Source of the DNA: Fluviicola sp. | Lineage (GTDB): Bacteria; Bacteroidota; Bacteroidia; Flavobacteriales_D; Crocinitomicaceae | Reading direction: 5' to 3' | Assembly (NCBI GenBank): GCA_017983675.1 | Contig: JAGOAZ010000005.1 | Span: forward strand, 124,001 to 188,000 | DNA: 64,000 bases | In this document: one piece after another, positions 35,832-62,032 of the stretch | Numbering within the stretch: the first letter of the stretch is position 1 | How the letters are laid out: the number at the start of each line of letters is the position of its first letter | Made by a program: the position numbers and the translations under genes | The notes under the pieces: model-generated | Told to the model about the DNA's origin: nothing | Databases searched by the model: none | What the model saw: only the letters and a program-made list of their open reading frames with translations

Positions 35832-36272
35832 TTAATTTCTAATAAATTTCAACCGAATTCGTAACAGCACCCAATGAATAAAGCGGCTTAGTTTTCCTAA
35901 ATTAAGCGCGGTGAATTTCCAAAATGCTAACCGATCAATCGTTTTCATTTCTTTGTTTTTACGTTGAAAAGCGGTTATTTTTCCTAAATAATTCGTTGCG
36001 TTTATGGGTTCGTCAGCGCGTAAACAAGCATCACCTTGAGATTTGTTTGGTGCAATATATCGGTGTACAATGAGTTGTTCCTTGCGTTGAAAAACGATCA
36101 CATCACCTTTTTTTAAATCTGCAAAAGGTGTTGGGTGAATTTTCACAATGTCAGCAGGGAGCAAGCAGGGATACATACTCCAACCATTTGCAGCGATGGT
36201 AATTTCCTGTCCGTTGTGCAACGCAGTTTGCACCATTTCAATCAAATGTTTATTTGTATTGCTTTCTTTCAT
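35832..36272 (-). CDS. S24/S26-type peptidase-like protein (signal peptidase fold)
   Basis: 146 residues. The core of the S26/S24 fold is visible: GWSMYPCLLPADIVKI with the candidate nucleophile Ser32, KGDVIVFQRKEQLIVHRYI with His70, and QGDACLRADEPI. His in place of the usual general-base Lys is the arrangement seen in SipW/ER-type signal peptidases. There is no N-terminal membrane anchor, but the C-terminal 30 residues are hydrophobic and basic (FIHWVLLRIRLKFIRN). Proteins like this often occur with PqqD, HprK-like kinase and nucleotidyltransferase genes in polysaccharide loci; such a trio lies at 50.4-52.8 kb. Substrate unknown. Single gene between lepA and a small membrane protein. Confidence 0.8.
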   Translation of the reverse strand: MKESNTNKHLIEMVQTALHNGQEITIAANGWSMYPCLLPADIVKIHPTPFADLKKGDVIVFQRKEQLIVHRYIAPNKSQGDACLRADEPINATNYLGKITAFQRKNKEMKTIDRLAFWKFTALNLGKLSRFIHWVLLRIRLKFIRN

Positions 36273-37359: not shown

Positions 37360-37581
37360 ATGAATATCCAAGATTATATAGAAATCAACAATGAAAAACG
37401 ATTTGGCTGTCCGATCATCAAAGGAAGTCGAATTGCAGTCGTTGATGTCTTGAATTGGTTAGCTAATGGGATGACGTATGAGGAAATCATCACCGATTTT
37501 CCAGAATTAACGAAACAACATATTGTAGCTTGTTTATTTTTTGCTGCTTCTAAAGAGGGGCATTTGGCGATTGCTTCATGA
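37360..37581 (+). CDS. DUF433 antitoxin-like protein
   Basis: 73-residue DUF433 protein. MNIQDYIEINNEKRFGCPIIKGSRIAVVDVL is the family core (xxGxPxIxGTRIxV), and WLANGMTYEEIITDFPELT is the helix-turn-helix-like part that links DUF433 to VapB-type antitoxins. It is the first gene of a pair; the downstream PIN-like gene overlaps by 4 nt (ATGA). Likely role: antitoxin and autorepressor of its own promoter. That role is family knowledge and was not shown here. Confidence 0.9.
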   Translation: MNIQDYIEINNEKRFGCPIIKGSRIAVVDVLNWLANGMTYEEIITDFPELTKQHIVACLFFAASKEGHLAIAS

Positions 37582-37913
37582 AGTTTTTAGTTGATCAGAA
37601 CATTTCTTTTAGAATCATCAAAGCACTTCAAACAACATTTGAAATTGAGCACATCAATGATTTAACCTTAAAAAATAAATCAGACAAAGAGATTTGGGAG
37701 TTTGCAAAAACAAATGAGTATTGTATCGTTACTTTTGATGGTGATTTTTATGATTTTTCTTTGGTTTGGGGTCATCCACCTAAAATTGTTTGGATTAGAA
37801 CCTATAATCAAACAACTAAAAATGTTGTTGCATTAATAACGAATCATCAGCAAGCAATCTATGATTTTTCTTTAAATAAAGAATTAGCTTGTTTAGAAAT
37901 CATCGACAAGTAA
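37578..37913 (+). CDS. DUF5615 PIN-like toxin
   Basis: 111 residues. It begins MKFLVDQNISFRIIKAL, with the first acidic residue of a PIN-like site (LVDxNIS), then NKSDKEIWEFAKTNEYCIVTFDGDFYDF (second Asp cluster D-x-D-x-Y) and PPKIVWIRTYNQTT. This is DUF5615/Mut7-C-like, the usual partner of DUF433. The expected activity is Mg-dependent RNA cleavage as in VapC. ATGA overlap with the antitoxin implies coupled translation with the toxin second. Confidence 0.9.
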   Translation: MKFLVDQNISFRIIKALQTTFEIEHINDLTLKNKSDKEIWEFAKTNEYCIVTFDGDFYDFSLVWGHPPKIVWIRTYNQTTKNVVALITNHQQAIYDFSLNKELACLEIIDK

Positions 37914-46930: not shown

Positions 46931-48385
46931 TCAAACAGATTTCTTGTCTTTCTGTTCGCTCGCTTTCGATTTTAGTTGTGCACTGAATGCAATAAAGATG
47001 GCGCACATGGTCCAAATAGGAACAGAAGCTTTGTCTGTATCCAAATAGTTATTCAAAAACGCGTGAATAAAATAGGTAGAAAGCGCGACTATCATTCCCA
47101 TCAACAAGGTTTTTGTTTCACGGTCTTCTTCTGGCCAGCGTTGGTACAAAGTAATTCCTTGATAGAATATTGCCGAAACGAGCGCTAACATTGCTAACAA
47201 ACCAAACACACCCATTTCAGCCAACGGCCCTAGGTATTCGCTGTGCGCATTTCCCATGTCACCGAAGTTGGTCGAAATAATGGTTAAATTCTCTGGTTCT
47301 TGAAAACGGGCGTATTCAAAGGCGTATGTTCCAGGACCAAAACCCATGATTGGGCGTTCTTCAAACATAGCAAGTGCACACGACCAACGATTAATACGTT
47401 CCAAGTTGGAAGCATCGGTTGTCACATTTGTTGCGCTTTGCAAACGTTCGCCAAACTCTTCTGTTGTGTGTTCAAATTTATTGCGTTCCAAGTTTTGTTG
47501 AATGGCATCCCAAGAAATCCAGACAAAACCAATTGCTATTACTGCAACGGACACCAACAAAGAAAATTTCACTTTGAAGCGAATCAGTATCCAGATACCT
47601 GCGCCCAAAATGACACTCAACCAAGCTGCTCGGGTGTAACTAAAATAGAGTGCAATCAGGTTGATTCCCAAAAAGCAAAGCAAGATTAATTGAACGAGTG
47701 GTGTATGTTTTTTAGAAAAATACAAGGCGAAAATAAGTGGGAAAACAAGCGCGACAATGGCGCCGTAGATGGTATGGTCTTTGAAAAATGGCCACATGAC
47801 CCAGTGCGATTCTTTTTCGCCAAACGCATACAACGAGTGTGTGAAAACGGTATAAATCATAGCGATTACCATCGAAACGATGAACAACCAAAAAAACCAT
47901 TTTACTTTTTTCAGGTTGATGAAAATACCGCTTCCATAGAGTAAAACCGGAACGATGAACCACAATTTCGCCAATAAAAACTTGTACGATACCAATGGAT
48001 GTTCACTTGCGATGGAAGCAATGAATATCCACAGCAAATAAAATGAAACCGCCCAAATGATAGGAGATGATTTTAAGTAACTTGGAAATACAGGATATTT
48101 CAACGCTTGCAACAACAAGAGCAGGGTTGTCCCGAAAAGTAAGGGTTCTGTTGGCAAAAACAAACCAAAGCCATCTGTAAATTCCTCAATATTGACCGAA
48201 AGTGGCGTTGCTGCGATGATGAAGAAAAAAGTGTATTCGGTGTAAAAAATAGCGACATACAAAACGATGAGCGCATAAGGAACCAAGTATCCAATAAAGG
48301 AATCTTCCCAAATGGAATAACCCAACAATCCGACAAACAGTACGCCAAAAAGCAGTAACCAGCTATTTTCTTTCCAAAAAGACAC
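46931..48385 (-). CDS. O-antigen ligase family protein (Wzy_C)
   Basis: 484-residue polytopic membrane protein with about 11-12 hydrophobic helices. The Wzy_C signature region is YFSYTRAAWLSVILGAGIWI. A large periplasmic loop follows at about residues 285-385, with a typical CALAMFEERPIMGFGPGTYAFEYARF and NAHSEYLGPLAEMGVFG (conserved His of ligases and polymerases). It joins polysaccharide to lipid A-core or polymerises repeat units. It starts 1 nt after the Wzz gene end, which supports a surface-polysaccharide export unit. Confidence 0.92.
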   Translation of the reverse strand: MSFWKENSWLLLFGVLFVGLLGYSIWEDSFIGYLVPYALIVLYVAIFYTEYTFFFIIAATPLSVNIEEFTDGFGLFLPTEPLLFGTTLLLLLQALKYPVFPSYLKSSPIIWAVSFYLLWIFIASIASEHPLVSYKFLLAKLWFIVPVLLYGSGIFINLKKVKWFFWLFIVSMVIAMIYTVFTHSLYAFGEKESHWVMWPFFKDHTIYGAIVALVFPLIFALYFSKKHTPLVQLILLCFLGINLIALYFSYTRAAWLSVILGAGIWILIRFKVKFSLLVSVAVIAIGFVWISWDAIQQNLERNKFEHTTEEFGERLQSATNVTTDASNLERINRWSCALAMFEERPIMGFGPGTYAFEYARFQEPENLTIISTNFGDMGNAHSEYLGPLAEMGVFGLLAMLALVSAIFYQGITLYQRWPEEDRETKTLLMGMIVALSTYFIHAFLNNYLDTDKASVPIWTMCAIFIAFSAQLKSKASEQKDKKSV

Positions 48386-48386
48386 C

Positions 48387-49382
48387 TTATGAAATTTGGC
48401 GAAGTTCTTTTAATTTATCGATCAACAAAAGTCCAAAGACACCAAAGAAAAATGTTCCGATAGTCGCCAATAAGACAATAATCAAGCGTTTTGGTTTGTC
48501 TTTTTTATCGGCAACAACAGCACGTTCCACAATAAATTTGTGATTGAATTGCGTGTTTGCATCCGATTCTGCTTGTTCGTAGGAAATAGCGAATTCAGAT
48601 AATTTGATGATTTTTTCACTGCGTACTTCTTCCAATCCATCAAATACTGCTCCGTATTGCAAATTGATATCAATTCGTTGTTTGAAATCAGCTTTATCAG
48701 CTGGACTTTTTGCGTCAACGTATGCAGCAAAGAGGTTTGCACGACCTTCCAAAGGAACGACACCAAGTGAGGCTAACGAATCCAATTGAGCAGAGATTAA
48801 TTTTTTCTCGTTCTCCAATTGATCGCGCTTGCGCTTATTAATTTCAAATGCAGGAACCGTTCTTTCCATCACCATTTCATTTTTCACGGTGTCAATCAAA
48901 TCGACAATTTTGTTTGCAATATCCGCAGCCAAAACAGGATCGCGGTCTAAGACATCAATTTGAATGGATCCGTAGCGTGTACGTTCAAACAAAATGTGTT
49001 GGGTATAATCTTTTACTAATTTGAAATATTTATTTGGATCGCTTTCGTCGATGTCGTAGTGCTTCATCAAGTCAAAACGCGCAACAACTTTGTCGCGTAC
49101 TTTCGATGATTGCAAAATTTGAATCAATTGTTCTGCTTGGTCTTCTTCACCAAAGTCCATCGAAGAAGCTTTCGCATTGCGTTGTTCCGAGAACGAAACC
49201 GTACTTGTTGCGGCAGGGAAAACAATAGCAGTGGAGCGGTAAAGCGGTGTTAACAGCAACGAAACAATAAGAGAAACGACAAAACCAATACCCGTTAAAA
49301 TACCTAATACCTTGCGTTTTTTCCAAATACTGACTAAAAGATTAGCTCTTTCTTGTACTTGTTGCGATTTATTTTCTTCCAT
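48387..49382 (-). CDS. Wzz/chain-length determinant family protein
   Basis: 331 residues with the polysaccharide co-polymerase topology. A short cytosolic N-terminus and helix 1 near residues 25-47 (LTGIGFVVSLIVSLLLTPLY) come first, then a periplasmic coiled-coil-rich domain (YGSIQIDVLDRDPVLAADIANKIV is the typical Wzz block). Helix 2 lies near 303-322 (LIIVLLATIGTFFFGVFGLLL). There is no C-terminal tyrosine kinase domain. It regulates polymer length together with the downstream ligase/polymerase. Likely the first gene of the wzz-ligase-ribE unit. Confidence 0.92.
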   Translation of the reverse strand: MEENKSQQVQERANLLVSIWKKRKVLGILTGIGFVVSLIVSLLLTPLYRSTAIVFPAATSTVSFSEQRNAKASSMDFGEEDQAEQLIQILQSSKVRDKVVARFDLMKHYDIDESDPNKYFKLVKDYTQHILFERTRYGSIQIDVLDRDPVLAADIANKIVDLIDTVKNEMVMERTVPAFEINKRKRDQLENEKKLISAQLDSLASLGVVPLEGRANLFAAYVDAKSPADKADFKQRIDINLQYGAVFDGLEEVRSEKIIKLSEFAISYEQAESDANTQFNHKFIVERAVVADKKDKPKRLIIVLLATIGTFFFGVFGLLLIDKLKELRQIS

Positions 49383-50410: not shown

Positions 50411-51595
50411 CTATTTCTTTTTGATTCCTTTCAAGCGATAAAACAACCGCAAGTATCGATAAGACCAGTTTTTCCAATAGGAATAGGTTCCTTGTGCCCA
50501 GTCCAAATATGCTTTACTTGGGAATATATCGTACCAATTTAATTGGAGTTGCTTCCAACTAAAGCGTTCGGTATGTCGGTGAAATAAATTAATTCGTAAT
50601 TGATCGCTAAAACTAATTTTTGTTCCTTCAATGACATGAAACAACACGCGTTCTATAAAACCTTCCGTATCGCTTATTGGTAATGTTGCTAAGAAATCAT
50701 TCGGAGACTGCGGCATGATTGATCGCACGCAACCTAAGATGGTAAACACTTCTTTTTTTGCAGCATAGCTTGAACATCGCGCAGTTAATTCTTCGCTTGT
50801 TAATTGATCTGCATGCTGTTGCATAAGTAAATATATATCAACCAATGAGCTCACTTTTAATTCGCCAAAAAACAAATGTTTGTATGCGTGTAGTGCGGTG
50901 TAAATGATGAGGTCGATTGGATCTAATTCCAAAATAGTTGCCGTTCGAAACGAAACGGTTTGACAGCGTGCGATTACCTGTTCTATAGGCATGCGAAAGG
51001 AAAACAGCTCGGGCATTAACTTGTTGTGAATGTCCAAGGTTAATTTACCCTTGTATCCTTGGTATGGCGCGTGAAACGATTGGTATTTTTCGTGAAATCG
51101 CGATTTGTATTGGTGCGTTTTGATTGCCCAACCAAGTTCTTCAGCGGTGGATAAAAAGGCAGTTTTATCTTGTGGCGCGAACAACACGTCGATATCACTC
51201 AATTGGCGCACATTTGCATCAGGATAGATTTTTTCGGCTAAATAAATTCCTTTGAGTGGCGCAATGAACACCCCTTTTTCCGAACAGGCGTTTGCCAGTT
51301 GGTCAAATTCGTGATACAACTGCGCGTTCATTGCAATGATTTTAAATTGATAAGCTTTGAGCGCTAGTTTTGTTTTTTCAGGTAAAATGATTTCAGGAAT
51401 CGTGCGCAAACTACTTGCTGCAAAAGCGGCTAAATGTGTGCGTACAGCAAGTGCAACAAAACGTTTCCAATCGAAATTTGTGCTTGTTTTTTCAATTATT
51501 TTGGCGGTATCGGCCGCGTTCAATTCTGTTTGACAAAGTAAAAACAACACCTGTGCTTCAGACGATAGTTGCTGAAATAATGGAGCAGTCTTCAT
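50411..51595 (-). CDS. NTP_transf_5-type nucleotidyltransferase family protein
   Basis: 394 residues, cytosolic. The nucleotidyltransferase core is APLKGIYLAEKIYPDANVRQ followed by LSDIDVLFAPQDK, where the DxD of SDID should hold metal. DLIIYTALHAYKHLFFGELK gives the conserved helical part. This PF14907-like family appears in exopolysaccharide loci and as a tailoring enzyme in some lasso-peptide clusters. It is the last gene of a three-gene operon: its start abuts the HprK-like stop with no gap. Confidence 0.88.
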   Translation of the reverse strand: MKTAPLFQQLSSEAQVLFLLCQTELNAADTAKIIEKTSTNFDWKRFVALAVRTHLAAFAASSLRTIPEIILPEKTKLALKAYQFKIIAMNAQLYHEFDQLANACSEKGVFIAPLKGIYLAEKIYPDANVRQLSDIDVLFAPQDKTAFLSTAEELGWAIKTHQYKSRFHEKYQSFHAPYQGYKGKLTLDIHNKLMPELFSFRMPIEQVIARCQTVSFRTATILELDPIDLIIYTALHAYKHLFFGELKVSSLVDIYLLMQQHADQLTSEELTARCSSYAAKKEVFTILGCVRSIMPQSPNDFLATLPISDTEGFIERVLFHVIEGTKISFSDQLRINLFHRHTERFSWKQLQLNWYDIFPSKAYLDWAQGTYSYWKNWSYRYLRLFYRLKGIKKK

Positions 51596-52477
51596 TTATT
51601 CGTTTGCTTTGATGAAGTCAATAATTGCTGGAGTAGGAACAACACCCAAACGATAAACGCCGCAATGTTGCGTTAATTCCCCCATTAAATCGAGTAATTT
51701 TTGTGTGTTTGCAACGCTGTAACCATGTTGGATACAAAAAGCCATGACCGAAGCAATGGCACGCACACCCACTAATTTTTCTAGCGTGTTTTCGGGATGA
51801 TGAAACGGTAAAAACACTCCGTTTAAACGTGCTTTTTTGGGACGATCAATGTAATACATCGGCGTGTTGTACATCCAAAATTCGTTTCCAATTTTTCGGA
51901 TAATCATGCGGTCGTCGTTGATAACAGTACTGCCAGCATCCATCCAAATTTTCGCCATCGTACTTTTTCCAACACCTGAAAATCCAGAGAAAATCCTTCC
52001 TTTTTCGCCATCAAACACTCCGGATGCGTGTATCATGAGTCCGTCGTTTGCCAAGGCAATGTAATAGAGCAACAATGGCAACAAGGGATATTTCAAGGGT
52101 TCGATCACCGATTTTCCATCGTGTTCAAACGCTTCACTGTAAACAACAAGCGCTTTTTCAACTTCGTTGTAACGTGCAATTTGTTGCAGCTCACTCGTAT
52201 TTTCGGGATTGTTTACGGTTAATAAAATTCCGTTTGTGTCCGAGTAAATTTCCCACAAAACCGAGTCGTTCGTTTTAGCGGTATAAATGGGTGCTTCGTT
52301 GGGAATAAGCGTTCTGTCAAGTCCCTCAACACACGAAATGGTGCAATCGAGAGTAGTAGCAGCAGTTGTTTGAAACAAGTCAAAACCATCGTCTAGCACG
52401 ATTGAACGTTGTTGCTTGCTTGTTACATGAAATTGAAAATCGGCAACAGCGAAAAAATGTTCGTGAGCGACGGTCAT
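51596..52477 (-). CDS. HPr kinase-like P-loop protein (HprK-related)
   Basis: 293 residues. The C-terminal half has the HprK-type fold: GLMIHASGVF, GRIFSGFSGVGKSTMAKIW with Walker A near residues 164-172, STVINDDRMIIRK, and a conserved MYNTPMYYID segment. The N-terminal half is poorly conserved. HPr-serine sensing domains of real HprK are absent, so the substrate is not HPr. Relatives phosphorylate a Ser in lasso precursors or are unknown partners in polysaccharide loci (the HprK-rel/PqqD systems). The operon order PqqD-HprK-NTase, with ATGA overlap on the PqqD side, supports one shared pathway. Confidence 0.87.
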   Translation of the reverse strand: MTVAHEHFFAVADFQFHVTSKQQRSIVLDDGFDLFQTTAATTLDCTISCVEGLDRTLIPNEAPIYTAKTNDSVLWEIYSDTNGILLTVNNPENTSELQQIARYNEVEKALVVYSEAFEHDGKSVIEPLKYPLLPLLLYYIALANDGLMIHASGVFDGEKGRIFSGFSGVGKSTMAKIWMDAGSTVINDDRMIIRKIGNEFWMYNTPMYYIDRPKKARLNGVFLPFHHPENTLEKLVGVRAIASVMAFCIQHGYSVANTQKLLDLMGELTQHCGVYRLGVVPTPAIIDFIKANE

Positions 52478-52764
52478 GCTGTAGTAACGAAAGTTGCTAG
52501 TTTTTCCAAGAAATTGCGTACATCGGTTGCAATCACATTTTTTTCGACATCGTATTCCTCGTAAATATGATTTACCAGGTCATCGAAGGTACAAGATGGA
52601 TCAATCGCTTCCCAGATAAAAGCGCCCACTTCGTTCATGGTCAGAAACTGATTGAAGTCGACCACATCCCCTTTTAGCGGAACGAGTAACAATTCTTCGC
52701 CGGTGTTTTTGCAAACAAAATAAGGTTTTTGAGCTGCGATAGCTTGGATGAGCGCTGTTTCCAT
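52474..52764 (-). CDS. PqqD-like peptide-binding protein
   Basis: 96-residue PqqD/RRE-type small winged-helix protein. DFNQFLTMNEVGAFIWEAI is the family core (lNxtgaxiWexldg), followed by TFDDLVNHIYEEYDVEKNVIATDVRNFLEKL. PqqD domains bind leader peptides of ribosomal peptides for the modifying enzymes. In HprK-related systems their client is undefined. First gene of the operon with the HprK-like kinase and nucleotidyltransferase. The 400-bp region upstream separates it from the divergent T9SS gene. Confidence 0.88.
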   Translation of the reverse strand: METALIQAIAAQKPYFVCKNTGEELLLVPLKGDVVDFNQFLTMNEVGAFIWEAIDPSCTFDDLVNHIYEEYDVEKNVIATDVRNFLEKLATFVTTA

Positions 52765-53165
52765 AAGTTTCTATTGTGCAAGTGCTAAAATACAATTTGT
52801 TTTGAAAAGAGCTTGTTAGGGATAAGTTATTTTATTAAAATGGTTTTTTCTGATTATGGTATTAACGTTTAAAAAAGCAAAAGATAGCTGTGAAAGACTG
52901 CATTTTTTCGTCCTTTTCAGATAGATTCATTGGAAAATTACAGCACCAAGAAAGCATTTTTAAGCATTGAATTGTTAAATAAGACACGATATCTAGTTTG
53001 AAACTAACATTTTAACTAATTGAAAATCAATAATATAAATGAATGAAGTGATTTTGTAGTATGTAAACAGATTACTTTTTTACCAGAAAACTGTATTTTT
53101 CTGATTGAATGAAAATTCATACCAACAACTAATTGCATACGAACTAAAAACTTAACTATTATTTT
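52765..53165. other. 401-bp AT-rich divergent intergenic region, no gene seen
   Basis: It lies between the PqqD operon and the giant T9SS gene. Only very short frames occur (for example an ATG at 52839 giving 10 codons). A 7/8 -7 box TATTTTTC is at 53094-53101 facing the T9SS gene. No hairpin terminator or tRNA. Confidence 0.5.
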
Positions 53166-56100
53166 ATGAAAGCTAGTCTTGTTTCACCAAACAAACTACA
53201 CACACACGACATTACTACCAAAACAAAATTACTTACCTTATTAGCTGTTTTTTTAGCAGGTTTATCTTGGGCTCAAAATAGTGCAAATTATGCCTTAACC
53301 TCAGGAGTAAGCACGTTAAATTCAATGTCAGGCGCCACCAGTTTGGTTACTGGAAATCAAGATGATTGGGGTAGCGCAGTGTTTCCTATTGGATTTGACT
53401 TCATCTACATGGGAGCACGGTATTCTCATATTAGTGTAAACAGCAATGGACAAGCACGTTTGCATACAAATTCTGGTGCTACTGCAATTGTAGGGACGAA
53501 CGTTTCTACTTACGCATTTTCAACTGTGACACTCGCGCCCATGGCTGGCGATAATGAGGTCAATAATGGAATGTCATATGTGGTTTTAGGAAGCGCACCT
53601 AATAGAAAATTGGTAATAGAATGGAATCAGTTTTATATATATTATTCTGATAATACGTCATCAGGTAATATGCAATTAGTATTGAATGAAGGTTCAGGGG
53701 AATTTGAATATTTGTATGGAGGGATTATTAATTCGCAAACAGCAACGACTTCTCGAGCAATTTTTCATAGTGCGAGCTCTACTGCAAACACGTCATCATT
53801 TATAACCGTTGGTGCAACACCCACGCAAAATACAACAGCAACAACACCGACAACAAATACTTTTGCGGCAAGTGTTCAACTCGCAGATTTGGCAAACACG
53901 TATTTGAAATTCACACCACCGACACCCGTTACAGGGCCAACGAGTTTAGTGTTTTCTGCTATTACAACGACTTCAATAACCTTGAATTGGACCGCTGCTT
54001 CTCCTGCAACTGGCATAGTAAGGTATCATGTATTTAATTCAACAAATGGTGGATTAACATACAATTTTTTCAATACCGTTCCATTAGCAAGTAATACACT
54101 TGTCGCTTCAGGATTAGTTCATTCGACAACTTATGATTGGAAAGTTATTGCAGTCAGCGAGGGAGCTGAAGGATTAGCAACAACAGGAACACAAGCAACA
54201 GCTTTACCAAGTACATATTATTGGGTTGGAACTACAGGTGATAATTGGTCGACAACGACAAGCTGGAATACAGCGGCAGATAATACCGGAACTGCTCGAT
54301 CATCAGTTGCGCCAACAGACATACTAATTGTTGACGGTGATGGAACAACCACAGGAGGTTCAACTACGATTAATGTTGATTTAGCTAGTTTTACTATCGG
54401 GCAATTGAAAGTTGTCAGCAATACTAATTTAACGTTACAATCGAATTCATCTTCTACTCGAATAATAACAATTGCTGGGGCTTCGGGAGTTGATTTTCTT
54501 GTGGAAAACGGAAGTGCGTTGAATTTAAATCATGCATTAAATCCAATTGCACTTGCTTTTACTGGTTCAAACAATACCGGTTTAATTGCAGGGACTTTAA
54601 ATTTTGCAGGTTCAACATCAAACTCATTCACAACTTCTGGTGGTACAGGCACGTTAGTGACAGTTTCTTCTTCGGGAGTTGTGAACTTAGGAGCTCCTGC
54701 AAATTCGTTAGTTGGAACAGCTGCAACATTATCATTTGCAGCAGGCGCTAATTGTAATTCATCTGGTGCAACAACAGGGGCACCGCCAGTTCCTTTAGCT
54801 ACATGGGATACAAACGCAACGCTGACAATAACTGGCTTAACAAATTCCTCCACTTCCCCAACAAACAATGGTCAATCTTTCGGAAATATTGTCTTTAATT
54901 GTCCCTTATTAACAAGTACATTTAACTTTTTTGGTTCAAGTATCTCTCCAGTTGTGAAAGGAAATCTTACAATTAGCAACACCAATACAGGAACTTTCAG
55001 AGCTGTAACTACTTCAACTGTTATTGTTAATGGTGACCTCAGTCTCGTTTCAGGTAAATTGCAAGTTGGAACAACAGGTACACTTGCTGTTTTAGGTAAC
55101 ACTACGATTGCAGCAACTGGAACATTGGAATTAAATGGAGCAATTTTCTCACAACGTGGAAGTACATTTACAAATAATGGCGTCATTAGTGGAACTCCGA
55201 CAAGTAGTGTTTTTCAATTTCTAGATTTAGCTGGAAGTGCTGGACAAACATTGGCAGGCTCTGGAACAATATCACCAAATATTTCCACGTTGAGTGTGCA
55301 AAACACAGCGGGATTAACCATCACACATACCAACCCGGTCATTGTGGCTCGTGTAAACTTATTTCAAGGAACAATTACAAACAGTAATAAAATTACCATT
55401 GGTACAGGATTAGCAGTTAATTGTACAGTTCAAATTGGTTATAGCGGTTTATTATCAAGTGGTGGTAGTTTTGATGTTGCTCCTACTTGGAATTTAGGTA
55501 CTGGAACATATACGCTAATTTATTCTCAAGAAGGATCGAATAGAACAACTGGAAATGAAATACCTTCAACACGAACAGTTAATACAATTACATTATCTAA
55601 CTCGAATGGAATTACTATTGCAGGTGGTGCATTAGCAACAGGTTCACTTTCATTTAGCGCATCAGCTGGGAATATTACAACAACTAGCGCAAACTTGTTA
55701 ACGGTAACAGGAACAGCATCTAATAGTATTTTTAGAACGTCACTAACAGCATTTGTTAATGGACCATTAGCAATCACTTTACCCGCAAATTTAGGTGCTG
55801 GTTCAACATATTTTATTCCAGTTGGAAAATCAGTTATTAACGGTATTGAATTAGTGAACCCGACTACAAATACTGGTGGAACTGTTACAATTCTTGCTGA
55901 AGTTGTTGATGCAACTACGGGTGGAACTGCTGGAAATTTAATGGGATCCATTGCAACAAACCGTTATTGGTCAACAGCCATAACAAATGGAAGTGCAAAC
56001 TTCACCAATACATTGGTGCGTCTAAATGATGTTACAACAGGTTTTGATGCAATTGCAGGTTCAAACACATTAACAGGAGCGTATGACTTACAAGGTGGCG

Positions 56101-58781
56101 CAGCTACTACAGTGACCGCAAATACACTTAGTACCGTTGCTCCTAAATTGACAACCTTACCTGCATTTTTTGTTTTGGGAACCAAATCTTCACCTATTTT
56201 GTCAAATTTAGTTATGACACCTACTGGAACTCAATGTACCAATGTAGCACGTACGATAACAATTACTGCTACTCCAAATGGCGGAGCAATAACAGGTGTA
56301 ATTTTGAATTATAACGTAAATGGAGTTGTTCAAACACCTGTTTCAATGACAAATTCTTCCGGTAATAATTGGACAGCAACGATACCAACTGTTACGCCAA
56401 GTAATGCAACTGTAACATGGAGTATTACAGCCACTGACGCTTATACTTTTTCTACATCGCTTGCGGGAACGGCTTATTCTGATGAACCAACAATTGGATT
56501 AACTCCTGCTGTAACAGCTTCTTTAAGTACAGTATGCGCTAATTCAAGTTCGAGTTTGAACATGGAATTAAATAGTGGTTATGTTAATTTTTCTGAAGGA
56601 TTTGAAGGTGCTACTTTTCCTCCAACAAATTGGATAACGATCAACGCTGGATCAGGCAACAATTGGATTACAAGTTCCACAGCTAAAAATGGTACTAAAG
56701 CAACTCAGTACACATATAATTCTTCAAATGCAGCGAACGCATGGTTGTTCACTCCTGCTCAACAATTGTTAGCTGGAAAAACCTACACGATTTCTTTTTG
56801 GCAAAAAGTTGCAAATGCTGCTTATACTGAAAAATTAAAAGTGACTGTTGGTACAGGACAAACAACTGCTTCCCAAACAACTGAGATTTGGTCCAATATC
56901 AATTTAACGAATACTACGTATTCGCAAGTTACAGCAACGTTTACACCTACTACAACGGGGACGTATTATTTTGCATTTAACTGCTTTTCTATTTCAAACC
57001 AACATACGTTATACATTGATGATATTTCAATAACTGGAGGTGTCAATGTTGGAACACCAACTTACTCTTGGTCTGATGGTACAACTGTTGTTGGCACGAC
57101 AAATCCATTAGTAGTTAATCCAAGTGCAACTACAACGTACACAGCAACTGCAACCATTAACGGATGTCCGTTGTCGGCTTCTACTACTGTTACTACAAAT
57201 CCGTGTTTAGCTACTTGGACAGGTGCAACTTCAACTGATTGGAACACTGCCTCCAACTGGAATCCTGCAGCTGTTCCTACAACTACTGATAATGTGATTA
57301 TTCCAAGTTCAGGCATTACCAATTTCCCAGTAGCGTCAAGTTTAGCAATTGCTGTTGGTAAAACAACAATACTCAATGCAAATTCCCGCCTCACCGTGAA
57401 CGGAAACATTGTAAATGACGGAACACTTACTTTAGAAAGTGGTGCAACCTTGGTGCAAGGAACAGGAAATACGGCTTCTGGAACTGGAGTTTATAACGTT
57501 CAACAAGCGTTAACAGGAGCTGGAGGTGCAACACCAAGTGGTCGTTTCTGGTACATGGGTTCTCCATTGTCGGGAGCATCTTCAACAGCTTTCAATGCTG
57601 CTGGTGATAACCGTTTGTGGACGTATGCAGAAGCAACGCAATCGTACACGGAAATTACAACGAACGGTGTAGCCATGTCACCCATACAAGGTCACGTAGC
57701 TCGTTTGGGCGCTTCTTCTACCGTTAATTTTACGGGTGGCGCAATCAACTCAGGTAGTTTCACGAATAACTCCTTAACAAATACAGGAACTGGATCCACA
57801 CGTGGTTATACCTTGATCAGTAATCCGTATCCATCTTTCTTGGATTGGGATTTGATTTCAGCAGGAGCAACAGGAATTACATCATCGTTGTGGTTCCGTA
57901 CAAATGATGGATCGAGCATGGTGTATGATACGTACAACGCAACAGGTGGTGTTTCAACATTGAATTCTGGTGTGACAACAAATCCACGTTACATTCCACC
58001 AATGCAAGCATTCTGGGTGTACAATCCAACTGATGGAACTACTGGTTCATTGACAATAAGCAACAGCATGCGTAGTCACCAATCTAATGGTGGATTAAAA
58101 GATGCAACAGATTTCCCTGCATTTGTGCGCTTGAACTTAGAAAACGATGCGGCTATCGACCAAACTGTATTGTACTTCGACAACAATGCAGCAGCAGGTT
58201 ACGACAACTTCGATTCAGACAAAATGTTGGTGCCAAACACTGCGCAAGTGTACACGTTTGTTGGTAACAAGAAATTGGCAATCAACGGAATGAAAAGCGT
58301 GAAAGCGAACAAACAAGTTCCGTTAACAGTTGAATTTCCAACGGCAAAAGCTTACGCGTTCAACGCAACAGAAGTAGCCATGACAGACGGAATTGTGTTG
58401 TTAGAAGACCGTTTGAAAAAAGTATTCCAAGACTTGACAATGAATCCGGTATATGAATTCGTTGCAGATGCAGGAACAACATCAGATCGTTTTGTGGTAC
58501 ATTTTCAGCCAAATGGTGGCGTAGCAGGAATCGAATCAGCTGAGGAAAATGGCATTGCTATTGTTTCGAATGCAGCAGGTTTGGTAACAATTACCTTGAG
58601 CGAGGAGTTGCCAGCAACGGGAACAATTCACATCATTGATATCAATGGAAAAGTAATTGCAACGCAAGCAATCAACGAGCAAACAACAACGATGAACATC
58701 AACGCTGCGACAGGAGTTTACCACGTGTTGGTTGATTCAGCATCAAAAGTTGCGCGCAAGAAAATTGTTATCACTAAGTAA
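53166..58781 (+). CDS. Giant T9SS-exported surface protein, longer paralog
   Basis: 1,871 residues. It has a long basic signal peptide with hydrophobic TKLLTLLAVFLAGLSWAQ near 18-37. Modules: a beta-rich module at about 40-245 (FPIGFDFIYMGARYSHISVN), FN3 at about 262-345 (SITLNWTAASPATG), a WSTTTSWNTAAD module near 360-420, long Ser/Thr/Asn-rich beta repeats, and a MAM-like segment near 1140-1300 (SEGFEGATFPPTNWITINAG). The module from residue 1351 (TWTGATSTDWNTASNWNPAA) to the end is shared with the gene at 59349. The C-terminus is a type A sorting domain (IIDINGKVIATQAINEQ, GVYHVLVDSASKVARKKI). Likely adhesin; the 53-residue peptide gene follows 26 nt downstream. Confidence 0.93.
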   Translation: MKASLVSPNKLHTHDITTKTKLLTLLAVFLAGLSWAQNSANYALTSGVSTLNSMSGATSLVTGNQDDWGSAVFPIGFDFIYMGARYSHISVNSNGQARLHTNSGATAIVGTNVSTYAFSTVTLAPMAGDNEVNNGMSYVVLGSAPNRKLVIEWNQFYIYYSDNTSSGNMQLVLNEGSGEFEYLYGGIINSQTATTSRAIFHSASSTANTSSFITVGATPTQNTTATTPTTNTFAASVQLADLANTYLKFTPPTPVTGPTSLVFSAITTTSITLNWTAASPATGIVRYHVFNSTNGGLTYNFFNTVPLASNTLVASGLVHSTTYDWKVIAVSEGAEGLATTGTQATALPSTYYWVGTTGDNWSTTTSWNTAADNTGTARSSVAPTDILIVDGDGTTTGGSTTINVDLASFTIGQLKVVSNTNLTLQSNSSSTRIITIAGASGVDFLVENGSALNLNHALNPIALAFTGSNNTGLIAGTLNFAGSTSNSFTTSGGTGTLVTVSSSGVVNLGAPANSLVGTAATLSFAAGANCNSSGATTGAPPVPLATWDTNATLTITGLTNSSTSPTNNGQSFGNIVFNCPLLTSTFNFFGSSISPVVKGNLTISNTNTGTFRAVTTSTVIVNGDLSLVSGKLQVGTTGTLAVLGNTTIAATGTLELNGAIFSQRGSTFTNNGVISGTPTSSVFQFLDLAGSAGQTLAGSGTISPNISTLSVQNTAGLTITHTNPVIVARVNLFQGTITNSNKITIGTGLAVNCTVQIGYSGLLSSGGSFDVAPTWNLGTGTYTLIYSQEGSNRTTGNEIPSTRTVNTITLSNSNGITIAGGALATGSLSFSASAGNITTTSANLLTVTGTASNSIFRTSLTAFVNGPLAITLPANLGAGSTYFIPVGKSVINGIELVNPTTNTGGTVTILAEVVDATTGGTAGNLMGSIATNRYWSTAITNGSANFTNTLVRLNDVTTGFDAIAGSNTLTGAYDLQGGAATTVTANTLSTVAPKLTTLPAFFVLGTKSSPILSNLVMTPTGTQCTNVARTITITATPNGGAITGVILNYNVNGVVQTPVSMTNSSGNNWTATIPTVTPSNATVTWSITATDAYTFSTSLAGTAYSDEPTIGLTPAVTASLSTVCANSSSSLNMELNSGYVNFSEGFEGATFPPTNWITINAGSGNNWITSSTAKNGTKATQYTYNSSNAANAWLFTPAQQLLAGKTYTISFWQKVANAAYTEKLKVTVGTGQTTASQTTEIWSNINLTNTTYSQVTATFTPTTTGTYYFAFNCFSISNQHTLYIDDISITGGVNVGTPTYSWSDGTTVVGTTNPLVVNPSATTTYTATATINGCPLSASTTVTTNPCLATWTGATSTDWNTASNWNPAAVPTTTDNVIIPSSGITNFPVASSLAIAVGKTTILNANSRLTVNGNIVNDGTLTLESGATLVQGTGNTASGTGVYNVQQALTGAGGATPSGRFWYMGSPLSGASSTAFNAAGDNRLWTYAEATQSYTEITTNGVAMSPIQGHVARLGASSTVNFTGGAINSGSFTNNSLTNTGTGSTRGYTLISNPYPSFLDWDLISAGATGITSSLWFRTNDGSSMVYDTYNATGGVSTLNSGVTTNPRYIPPMQAFWVYNPTDGTTGSLTISNSMRSHQSNGGLKDATDFPAFVRLNLENDAAIDQTVLYFDNNAAAGYDNFDSDKMLVPNTAQVYTFVGNKKLAINGMKSVKANKQVPLTVEFPTAKAYAFNATEVAMTDGIVLLEDRLKKVFQDLTMNPVYEFVADAGTTSDRFVVHFQPNGGVAGIESAEENGIAIVSNAAGLVTITLSEELPATGTIHIIDINGKVIATQAINEQTTTMNINAATGVYHVLVDSASKVARKKIVITK

Positions 58782-59019
58782 GCAAAACATTAAAAAACGA
58801 AATTGAGATGAAAACTGAAAATACAGCTAACACAGCAACAACAACCACTACGAAACGCGTTTACGAAGCGCCGAAAGTAGAGACGATACAGATTGACAGT
58901 GAGATTTCTTTGGTGATGATGTCGCTTCCGGGCGATCCAATGGCACCATTATACAATCCATTGTCGTAAGTAACAGGAACATTGAAAAAAGGAAAGAGAG
59001 GCGAAAGTCTCTCTTTTTT
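57216..59019 (+). repeat. Direct repeat, copy 1 (about 1.8 kb)
   Basis: It matches 59877-61680 at a constant offset of 2,661 bp up to the peptide stop. The first 350 bp are visibly diverged. From about 57600 onward only scattered substitutions occur, and from about 57895 to the peptide stop (58969) I saw no differences by eye. It covers the T9SS 3' end, the 53-residue peptide gene and the terminator. Confidence 0.9.
58808..58969 (+). CDS. 53-residue peptide with YxxPxV motif (copy 1)
   Basis: Short gene: ATG at 58808, TAA ending 58969. Charge-poor Thr/Asn-rich start (MKTENTANTATTTTTKR), then VYEAPKVETIQIDSEISL, then a hydrophobic/Gly-Pro tail (VMMSLPGDPMAPLYNPLS). Coding status is supported by the AATTGAG spacer, its position between a T9SS gene and a strong terminator, and perfect conservation in the second copy. 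KxYxxPx(V/L) short proteins are widespread in Bacteroidota without known function. The motif also resembles the YxxPxLxxxG leader read by PqqD-like domains of lasso-peptide systems. No signal peptide and no Cys. Function unknown. Confidence 0.75.
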   Translation: MKTENTANTATTTTTKRVYEAPKVETIQIDSEISLVMMSLPGDPMAPLYNPLS

Positions 59020-59020
59020 T
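58993..59020 (+). terminator. Rho-independent terminator (copy 1)
   Basis: AAAGAGAGGC at 58993-59002 pairs with GTCTCTCTTT at 59007-59016 (one G-U) around a GAAA tetraloop, followed by T's. It ends the T9SS-peptide transcript. Confidence 0.92.
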
Positions 59021-59036
59021 GTGGGGTAGACATAGT

Positions 59037-59073
59037 GTAGACTTCGAGTCCCGATGTTTCGGGATCAGTCTAC
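59037..59073. repeat. REP-like 37-nt palindromic element, copy R1
   Basis: Starts GTAGACTTCGAGTCCCGA, loop TGT, then TCGGGATCAGTCTAC: an imperfect inverted repeat. An identical 37-mer sits at 61687-61723. Confidence 0.85.
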
Positions 59074-59113
59074 ACGAGAACCTCAGTCATCGGGAACGGT
59101 TATAAAAAATGGA

Positions 59114-59147
59114 GGCTGATTCCGACGATTCGGGACTCGAAGTCTAC
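59114..59147. repeat. REP-like element in inverse orientation, copy R2
   Basis: 59130-59147 is the exact reverse complement of GTAGACTTCGAGTCCCGA. The other arm (59114-59125) is a diverged GCTGATTCCGA. A further fragment, TCGAAGTCAACGGGATCAGTC-like, follows at about 59153-59174. The rest of the 379-bp gap to 59348 is AT-rich with no gene. Confidence 0.75.
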
Positions 59148-59283
59148 ATTTCCTCGAAGTCAACGGGATCAGTCAGCTGGATCGGTCTCCATTAATTCCT
59201 CATCCGAAAATCATTTGTTTTTTAACCCCTTAACTAAATCGATATAGTATACTTAAACACAATTTTTTATTAAATTCTTCACA

Positions 59284-59291
59284 TAATTTTG
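59284..59291 (+). promoter_or_regulatory. Possible -7 box (TAATTTTG) for the 697-residue T9SS gene
   Basis: Exact TAnnTTTG, 57 nt before the ATG at 59349. No -33 TTG at good spacing. Confidence 0.4.
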
Positions 59292-59348
59292 ATATTCATT
59301 CAATTGCTTTTCTATATCATTGTGCTGAAAAAAAATTAAAGCTGTACT

Positions 59349-61442
59349 ATGAAACAACTGAAACATTTCTACACACCAGTCATTACCACCTTATTTTTAT
59401 TGCTTTTTGGACACGGCGTTTGGGGGCAGGTTAATATTTTTTCAGAAACATTTTCATCAATTACATCTGGAAATAATACATCTACTTCTGGTTCAGGAGT
59501 TGCTTGGGCTGGAAATACAAATTTTCCAAATGTAGCACAGGCATACAGTGCTGGTGATGCTGTTAGAATAGGTTCAGGCTCTGTAATCGGTTCAATAACA
59601 AGTAAGATATTAGATTTAAGTGTAAATGGAGGTAACTTTACATTAAGTTTTGACGTGAAAGGATGGACCACAGTTGAGGGAGGGATAAAAATTACAATAA
59701 CTGGACAAACAGCTCAAACATTAATGTATTCAGCTGTAATTGCATCATCAAGTTTCGAAACTAAAACAATAAATTTTACTGGGGGAGTTGCAAATTCTAC
59801 ATTAAAAATTGAAACTACCGCTAAAAGAGCTTTTATTGATAACGTGATAATTAGTTATGTTTCACAACCAACCACCTGGACAGGCGCAACGTCAACCGAC
59901 TGGAACACTGCTTCTAACTGGAACCCTGCAGCTGTTCCTACATCAACAGATAATGTGATTATACCAAGTTCAGGCATTACCAATTTCCCTGTAGTTTCTG
60001 GTCTCACTATTGACGCTGGAAAAACAGTAACATTGAATAGTAATACCCGTCTTACAGTCAACGGAAACATTGTAAACAACGGAACGCTTACCTTACAAAG
60101 TGGTGCTACTTTGGTACAAGGAACAGGAAATACGGCTTCTGGAACAGGAGTTTATAACGTACAACAAGCCTTAACTGGTGGTGGTGGGTCAACACCAAAC
60201 GGTCGTTTTTGGTACATGGGTTCTCCTTTGTCGGGTGCATCTTCAACAGCATTCGATGCTGCGGGTGATAACCGTTTGTGGACGTATGCAGAAGCAACGC
60301 AATCGTACACGGAAATTACAACGAACGGTGTAGCCATGTCACCCATACAAGGTCACGTCGCTCGTTTGGGCGCTTCTTCTACCGTTAATTTTACGGGTGG
60401 CGCAATCAACTCAGGTAGTTTCACGAATAACTCCTTAACAAATACAGGAACGGGATCTACACGTGGTTATACCTTGATTAGCAATCCGTATCCATCTTTC
60501 TTGGATTGGGATTTGATTTCAGCAGGAGCAACAGGAATTGCAACATCGTTGTGGTTCCGTACAAATGATGGATCGAGCATGGTGTATGATACGTACAACG
60601 CAACAGGTGGTGTTTCAACATTGAATTCTGGTGTGACAACAAATCCACGTTACATTCCACCAATGCAAGCATTCTGGGTGTACAATCCAACTGATGGAAC
60701 TACTGGTTCATTGACAATAAGCAACAGCATGCGTAGTCACCAATCTAATGGTGGATTAAAAGATGCAACAGATTTCCCTGCATTTGTGCGCTTGAACTTA
60801 GAAAACGATGCGGCTATCGACCAAACTGTATTGTACTTCGACAACAATGCAGCAGCAGGTTACGACAACTTCGATTCAGACAAAATGTTGGTGCCAAACA
60901 CTGCGCAAGTGTACACGTTTGTTGGTAACAAGAAATTGGCAATCAACGGAATGAAAAGCGTGAAAGCGAACAAACAAGTTCCGTTAACAGTTGAATTTCC
61001 AACGGCAAAAGCTTACGCGTTCAACGCAACAGAAGTAGCCATGACAGACGGAATTGTGTTGTTAGAAGACCGTTTGAAAAAAGTATTCCAAGACTTGACA
61101 ATGAATCCGGTATATGAATTCGTTGCAGATGCAGGAACAACATCAGATCGTTTTGTGGTACATTTTCAGCCAAATGGTGGCGTAGCAGGAATCGAATCAG
61201 CTGAGGAAAATGGCATTGCTATTGTTTCGAATGCAGCAGGTTTGGTAACAATTACCTTGAGCGAGGAGTTGCCAGCAACGGGAACAATTCACATCATTGA
61301 TATCAATGGAAAAGTAATTGCAACGCAAGCAATCAACGAGCAAACAACAACGATGAACATCAACGCTGCGACAGGAGTTTACCACGTGTTGGTTGATTCA
61401 GCATCAAAAGTTGCGCGCAAGAAAATTGTTATCACTAAGTAA
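59349..61442 (+). CDS. T9SS-exported surface protein, shorter paralog
   Basis: 697 residues. Signal peptide near 1-27 (VITTLFLLLFGHGVWGQ). A unique beta-sandwich domain lies at about 30-170 (FSETFSSITSGNNTST, FTLSFDVKGWTTVEGGIKI, AFIDNVIISY), resembling carbohydrate-binding/choice-of-anchor modules. From residue 177 (TWTGATSTDWNTASNWNPAA) to the end it is homologous to the last 521 residues of the 1,871-residue protein at constant spacing, and identical over about the last 300. Type A sorting domain at the C-terminus. It is followed by a second copy of the 53-residue peptide and terminator. Confidence 0.93.
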   Translation: MKQLKHFYTPVITTLFLLLFGHGVWGQVNIFSETFSSITSGNNTSTSGSGVAWAGNTNFPNVAQAYSAGDAVRIGSGSVIGSITSKILDLSVNGGNFTLSFDVKGWTTVEGGIKITITGQTAQTLMYSAVIASSSFETKTINFTGGVANSTLKIETTAKRAFIDNVIISYVSQPTTWTGATSTDWNTASNWNPAAVPTSTDNVIIPSSGITNFPVVSGLTIDAGKTVTLNSNTRLTVNGNIVNNGTLTLQSGATLVQGTGNTASGTGVYNVQQALTGGGGSTPNGRFWYMGSPLSGASSTAFDAAGDNRLWTYAEATQSYTEITTNGVAMSPIQGHVARLGASSTVNFTGGAINSGSFTNNSLTNTGTGSTRGYTLISNPYPSFLDWDLISAGATGIATSLWFRTNDGSSMVYDTYNATGGVSTLNSGVTTNPRYIPPMQAFWVYNPTDGTTGSLTISNSMRSHQSNGGLKDATDFPAFVRLNLENDAAIDQTVLYFDNNAAAGYDNFDSDKMLVPNTAQVYTFVGNKKLAINGMKSVKANKQVPLTVEFPTAKAYAFNATEVAMTDGIVLLEDRLKKVFQDLTMNPVYEFVADAGTTSDRFVVHFQPNGGVAGIESAEENGIAIVSNAAGLVTITLSEELPATGTIHIIDINGKVIATQAINEQTTTMNINAATGVYHVLVDSASKVARKKIVITK

Positions 61443-61680
61443 GCAAAACATTAAAAAACGAAATTGAGATGAAAACTGAAAATACAGCTAACACAGCAAC
61501 AACAACCACTACGAAACGCGTTTACGAAGCGCCGAAAGTAGAGACGATACAGATTGACAGTGAGATTTCTTTGGTGATGATGTCGCTTCCGGGCGATCCA
61601 ATGGCACCATTATACAATCCATTGTCGTAAGCAACAGGAACATTGAAAAAGGAAAGAGAGGCGAAAGTCTCTCTTTTTTT
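59877..61680 (+). repeat. Direct repeat, copy 2 (about 1.8 kb)
   Basis: Partner of 57216-59019. One A is missing just after the peptide gene (offset becomes 2,660 at the terminator); otherwise no indels were seen. Confidence 0.9.
61469..61630 (+). CDS. 53-residue peptide with YxxPxV motif (copy 2)
   Basis: Nucleotide-identical by eye to the peptide gene at 58808-58969: same MKTENTANTATTTTTKR start, YEAPKVETI motif and MAPLYNPLS end. It stands 26 nt after the 697-residue T9SS gene and 22 nt before a terminator. Conservation of the complete unit (T9SS tail, peptide, terminator) in both copies argues that the peptide is expressed with the surface protein. Whether it is secreted, modified, or a small regulator is unknown. 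Confidence 0.75.
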   Translation: MKTENTANTATTTTTKRVYEAPKVETIQIDSEISLVMMSLPGDPMAPLYNPLS

Positions 61681-61686: not shown

Positions 61687-61723
61687 GTAGACTTCGAGTC
61701 CCGATGTTTCGGGATCAGTCTAC
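61687..61723. repeat. REP-like 37-nt palindromic element, copy R3
   Basis: Identical to 59037-59073. It supplies the last codons and stop of the minus-strand toxin gene (stop at 61715-61717). Confidence 0.85.
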
Positions 61724-62032
61724 GTTAGAACTCAGTTTGCGTTTTCTAGGATGTTGTCGGTTTGAAAAGAAGGAAAGTATTTCAATTTGCTGATTATTTA
61801 CTTGATAATAAAGTGTGTTAAATTGAAGTATGACAACTCTTCTAACGTGGGGTAATCGGCGAGAAGATTGAAATAAAAAAGGATTAAGTGCAATTAGCGC
61901 GACAGTTTTTTCAATAGCAATTGCTAAATTTTTCAGTTCCTTTTCAGTCCAATTTTCTTCTAAGTAGGTAAGTGTTTCGGTTAATTCATGAATGGCGTGT
62001 CTTGTCCAAAAGATCTTATAGCCATTTTTTAT
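61715..62032 (-). CDS. RelE/ParE-family toxin, start codon abnormal
   Basis: About 100 residues in one open minus-strand frame: YKIFWTRHAIHELTETL, EENWTEKELKNLAIAIEK, ALNPFLFQSSRRLPHVRRVV, YYQVNNQQIEILSFFSNRQHPRK. This is the ParE/RelE fold (KIxWTxxAxxEL...RVLxxxxxxxYxV...IxILxxfxxRQ). No ATG, GTG or TTG is in frame before the conserved start. The only ATG (62023-62025) is one frame off, reading ATGGC|TATAAG, so a single-base deletion would destroy the start. Otherwise an ATA at 62030-62032 is used; the end coordinate assumes that. The last residues come from the REP-like element. It overlaps the antitoxin stop, as in parDE operons. Either a recently broken or a poorly translated toxin. Confidence 0.72.
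   Translation of the reverse strand: MKNGYKIFWTRHAIHELTETLTYLEENWTEKELKNLAIAIEKTVALIALNPFLFQSSRRLPHVRRVVILQFNTLYYQVNNQQIEILSFFSNRQHPRKRKLSSNVD

Follow-up and report, generated by a model that had tools for sequence, protein, structure and literature searches.

Linear Polyphosphorylated Peptides (LPP) are RiPPs that were reported in 2026 as confined to Bacillota, with no known role (PMC13381572). In these systems LppB binds a YxxP motif in the leader, LppK multiphosphorylates the core residue Ser3, and LppS together with LppB cleaves the leader two residues ahead of this Ser, while deletion of lppN caused no detectable change (PMC13381572). An HprK-like kinase, an NTP transferase and a PqqD-type B1 protein are also found in the lasso peptide systems of the paeninodin/pseudomycoidin type, and the pseudomycoidin nucleotidyltransferase attaches a hexose to a Ser phosphate (PMC8498205).

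We analysed a stretch of 64,000 nucleotides from a Fluviicola sp. contig (JAGOAZ010000005.1, positions 124,001 to 188,000), hereafter called the window. It is likely that this locus encodes a Bacteroidota variant of an LPP-kind RiPP system, the peptides of which would be phosphorylated at Ser39, cleaved, exported and act with surface adhesins. The relevant features are as follows.

35832-36272, minus strand: candidate leader peptidase of the LppS type, an archaeal-type signal-peptidase-like protein (E = 9e-14 against the peptidase encoded in a relative's cassette)
50411..51595, minus strand: NTP_transf_5 nucleotidyltransferase, LppN/PsmN-like (PF14907, E = 7e-46)
51596..52477, minus strand: HprK-like kinase, LppK-like (NCBIfam TIGR04355, E = 1.9e-10, under the curated cut-off)
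52474..52764, minus strand: PqqD-like RiPP recognition element (RRE), LppB-like (Pfam PF05402, E = 1.3e-15)
53166..58781, plus strand: T9SS adhesin paired with peptide copy 1 (TIGR04183 and PF18962)
58808..58969, plus strand: precursor peptide gene, copy 1, 53 residues (homologues in the order and phylum, under purifying selection in relatives)
58986..59020, plus strand: terminator-like hairpin and T-run directly 3' of peptide copy 1, repeated at 61646-61680 after copy 2
59349..61442, plus strand: T9SS adhesin paired with peptide copy 2 (TIGR04183, E = 2.5e-7)
61469..61630, plus strand: second copy of the precursor peptide gene, with the same sequence as copy 1

A sequence-only reading of this DNA had singled out the enzyme trio and the two identical 53-residue genes, all of which we confirmed at these positions. 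The trio genes overlap or abut and hence form a single operon (50411-52764, minus strand). Separate PqqD-type RRE, HprK-like kinase and NTP transferase proteins are likewise found in the lpp cluster of Paenibacillus alginolyticus (PMC13381572). The AlphaFold model of the kinase (pLDDT 94.7) yielded HprK and PEPCK as Foldseek matches, and the P-loop GFSGxGKxT and an NDDR motif are invariant across 18-22 relatives. In the nucleotidyltransferase, LKG, R130, D134 and D136 are invariant across 13 relatives. The PqqD protein was too weak a query as a single sequence to give a useful search result. The profile of its alignment (A7) matched TbiB1 (1.3e-11), PbaB1 (1.5e-9) and LppB (8.8e-7) in the PDB. 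Its residues N44, D81 and F85 align with N33, D70 and F74 of LppB (structure 9x8z), which were reported to hold the Tyr and Pro residues of the leader (PMC13381572). N44 and D81 are invariant in A7 and F85 nearly so; PbaB1, which binds Trp, carries Gly and Gln in place of N33 and D70. Judging from these alignments, the Tyr-selective YxxP pocket of LppB-type RREs is conserved in the window protein. The leader motif has a Tyr here, versus usually a Trp in paeninodin-like precursors.

The putative precursors have no family match in Pfam-A or NCBIfam, and a single-sequence search in 59 relatives returned, outside the genome of origin, only matches with E above 0.4, so that a profile was needed for peptide searches. 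The pN/pS values of the gene in relatives (0.04-0.28) indicate a real, translated open reading frame. A duplication in the window (57883-58970 and 60544-61631, 1088 bp without a difference) spans the 3' part of the adhesin gene and the whole peptide gene. An imperfect 39-bp inverted repeat (GTAGACTTCGAGTCCCGA...) was also observed beside each adhesin-peptide unit (59036-59148 and 61687-61726).

The precursor harbours a conserved block, YEAPKVETIQIDSEISLVMMS, at residues 19-39. Alignment of 26 peptides showed Y19, P22 and D30 to be invariant and position 39 to be occupied by Ser in 25 of them and by Thr in one; in all 26, this Ser/Thr follows the motif Tyr at a distance of 20 residues. The same spacing was found in five peptides from two genomes (G328 and G416) of a genus absent from profile training, and in a single peptide from Bacteroidales encoded close to a distant cassette. 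By contrast, the flanks vary, from 4 to 19 residues on the N-terminal side and from 1 to 36 in the C-terminal tail. This architecture, a constant block with flanks of changing length, is consistent with a part involved in leader binding and an invariable position for modification or cleavage. Four tandem peptide open reading frames of 26-38 residues, hardly more than the conserved block, were observed in one relative (L082:12977-13437).

LPP precursors are likewise of the YxxPxV type: their conserved N-terminal block ends in Ser, their C-terminal tail is variable, and no cyclase accompanies them. However, the host is a member of Bacteroidota rather than Bacillota, and the block of the window type, YxxPxVxxIxLDxEISLVMxS, has a Tyr-Ser distance of 20 residues versus 18 in Bacillota LPP. 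The LPP consensus YxxPxVLxHQxIxFETxxS is not matched: YxxPxV, an acidic residue and the terminal Ser are common to both, whereas the middle part and the spacing differ. As the published consensus and spacing are unmatched, we do not claim membership in LPP proper.

The likeness to the lasso systems raises the question of a cryptic lasso cluster, with a cyclase and a B2 protease encoded elsewhere. The RRE profile is indeed closer to the B1 proteins TbiB1 and PbaB1 than to LppB, and the RRE may have arisen independently from lasso-type RREs, the scenario put forward by the LPP authors for LPP (PMC13381572). Unlike in the paeninodin and pseudomycoidin systems, no macrolactam cyclase was found: none of the open reading frames around the trio, whether in the window or in the local neighbourhoods of any relative, harbours the SGGxDS motif of asparagine-synthetase-type cyclases, and the gene lists of the window and the relatives show no B2 protease near the trio. 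Moreover, the peptide tails are highly variable, down to a single residue past the conserved Ser in L082. We thus regard a lasso cluster as extremely improbable, in keeping with the sequence-only reading, which had noted that this is not a standard cluster of that type. A C-terminal Ser as the modification target, as in paeninodin, was also considered and dropped, since this residue is not conserved and only some of the peptides end in Ser.

The earlier description of the system as possibly minimal does not hold, because a candidate leader peptidase, which it had missed, belongs to it as well. The gene for this signal-peptidase-like protein is located approximately 14 kb from the trio operon in the window genome. 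G30, S32, M33, P35, H70 and R71 are invariant in the protein and D87 nearly so, and the 150-165-residue cassette proteins of relatives share GxSMxP, HR and GD motifs, with an Asp 25 residues past the His in most aligned sequences. As read from sequence, this Ser/His/Asp pattern matches the arrangement reported for LppS (S29, H68 and D93; PMC13381572), itself the archaeal-type signal peptidase I homologue of the LPP system. Structural comparison of the modelled window protein showed a resemblance to LexA and signal peptidases, albeit at weak E-values. Pfam matches in relatives were Peptidase_S24 and S26, in one case fused to ABC_membrane and ABC_tran domains. In our order sample the gene was detected in 12 genomes, all 12 of which also encode the peptide. 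With this gene added, the parts match the core of LPP RiPPs (PMC13381572).

LPP clusters include an MsbA-like exporter. In Bacteroidales relatives an ABC exporter is present or fused to the peptidase; in the window genome, our search for ABC exporters returned generic family matches only and no cassette-specific exporter. The fusion at L099:10830-13076 joins a signal-peptidase-like domain to an ABC exporter, a layout like that of peptidase-containing ABC transporters with another peptidase fold.

To collect further members, genome contigs were searched with the kinase alignment, which yielded relatives named Crocinitomicaceae, Flavobacteriales, Paludibacter and other Bacteroidales. A PqqD gene, the 150-165-residue peptidase-like protein, often NTP_transf_5, and YxxP peptides recur around the kinase genes. 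PqqD, HprK-like kinase and peptidase thus form a cassette that is found with or without NTP_transf_5, which is absent beside several Bacteroidales cassettes, and with or without an ABC exporter. A search of non-subscription literature for the LPP name returned PMC13381572 alone, in which the stem Bacteroid does not occur; the Bacteroidota members and their association with T9SS adhesins therefore appear to be undescribed in the literature searched.

Next, we determined the distribution of the kinase and the peptide. Among 299 genomes of the order, 13 have both, 4 the kinase only, 4 the peptide only and 278 neither, the kinase search and the peptide profile each detecting 17 genomes from one and the same set of three genera (Fisher p=2.9e-16, a value that ignores relatedness and involves a peptide profile built from peptides near the kinase). 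Two weak peptide matches (G115 and G162, E about 0.006) were left out of these counts as probable chance. The sequence is cut inside the kinase gene in one kinase-only genome (G074), and no peptide was detected by the profile in the three others (G120, G223 and G228), for which a query with the divergent G289 peptide brought nothing new. In another genome (G079), the contig starts within the adhesin gene, where the trio is expected by synteny with G276. A sample of 395 genomes of the phylum provided a more independent test, as the genus of G328 and G416 had served to build neither profile: the peptide profile matched the window genome (G000), G328 and G416, and the kinase profile matched exactly the same three at more than 200 bits.

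In most relatives, about 10 kb or less separates the peptide genes from the kinase gene, as the co-occurrence proposed in the sequence-only reading would have it. In G416 the two are separated by about 2.2 Mb, and the enzymes would therefore act in trans. Independent occurrence of trio and peptides, which would have spoken against a link between them, is not what the order and phylum samples show. The co-occurrence supports the proposed role in peptide tailoring, and the trio enzymes probably phosphorylate the short peptides.

A second feature that had escaped notice is the association of the peptide genes with those of T9SS adhesins. Each peptide gene of the window begins 26 bp past the stop codon of its adhesin gene. 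Wherever sufficient sequence was available upstream of a distinct peptide, we retrieved the long same-strand open reading frame ending just before the peptide gene and scanned the C-terminal end of its product; two L074 peptides, for which this frame is a peptidase or spurious, and one L077 peptide cut by the contig end had been set aside. The T9SS type A sorting domain (TIGR04183) was found in 31 of the 32 upstream proteins, the exception probably being that of L126, where the peptide is on a contig edge. Similar pairs were found for peptides encoded far from the trio or the kinase, another difference from LPP. Peptides that have no adjacent adhesin include the four minimal ones in tandem in L082 and one encoded between PqqD and the kinase in L101. 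Similarities between adhesin ends and between peptides are correlated (Mantel rho 0.59, reached by 0 of 2000 permutations), a result to which we give no weight in the argument because kinship is uncontrolled.

The adhesin and the peptide are probably co-transcribed. A peptide that stays in the cell and regulates the expression or secretion of the adhesin, its activity being controlled by the kinase through phosphorylation, might likewise show such strict one-to-one pairing within a probable single transcription unit, and no signal peptide is visible in the peptide sequence. However, a peptidase belongs to the cassette, and some relatives have it as a fusion with an ABC exporter, which points to cleavage and export; we consider such a regulator rather unlikely.

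The sequence-only reading had also weighed a partnership with polysaccharide export, in which the trio would modify or regulate Wzz, the ligase or glycan chains and the peptides would be unrelated. Genes for Wzz and an O-antigen ligase are indeed present at 46931-49382, distant Bacteroidales PqqD-HprK cassettes have neighbours that look by eye like glycosyltransferase and Wzz/kinase genes, and the Bacillota LPP clusters sit in capsule loci (PMC13381572). Nevertheless, this proximity is not conserved: close relatives of the trio have no adjacent Wzz or ligase genes but do have YxxP peptides and T9SS proteins, and the peptide and the kinase co-occur phylum-wide, making this explanation very unlikely.

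In the LPP-like system that we favour, the PqqD-like protein would bind the YxxPxV part of the peptide, and the HprK-like kinase would phosphorylate the Ser/Thr 20 residues past the motif Tyr. Phosphorylation of Ser residues had been proposed before for the tail of the peptide; this modification has an experimental precedent in LPP (PMC13381572), and its likely target is instead Ser39, the last residue of the conserved block. The signal-peptidase-like protein would then remove the leader shortly before Ser39. NTP_transf_5 may add a sugar or a nucleotide to the peptide phosphate, a step we put forward with little conviction given that deletion of lppN had no visible effect (PMC13381572). The modified tail would be exported, in some relatives possibly by the ABC exporter fused to the peptidase, and the pairing of the genes suggests that it might act together with its partner T9SS adhesin on the cell surface.

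More tentatively, we speculate that phosphorylated, possibly sugar-bearing peptides could be dedicated partners of individual T9SS adhesins across Bacteroidota, bound covalently or non-covalently, and tune attachment, anchoring or recognition. They would then represent a new kind of adhesin cofactor, which would explain the purpose of LPP-type peptides. The parts described here extend the LPP kind to Bacteroidota, and the adjacency of peptide and T9SS genes is a clue to function, so that the role could be tested in a T9SS bacterium by deleting genes.

At L162:242-2081, five short open reading frames with a WxxPxIxxLxRxxxEExxLxxCK motif, a related but different precursor type, are found beside a PqqD/HprK-like/signal-peptidase-like cassette from which T9SS proteins are absent. 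The Bacteroidales loci L160, L161 and L164 harbour signal-peptidase-like, PqqD, ABC and HprK-like genes and resemble polysaccharide loci, and a YIAP...MAAS peptide of L164 has the same Tyr-Ser spacing as the window peptides. Finally, two adjoining short genes at 37360-37913 of the window look by eye like a toxin-antitoxin pair.
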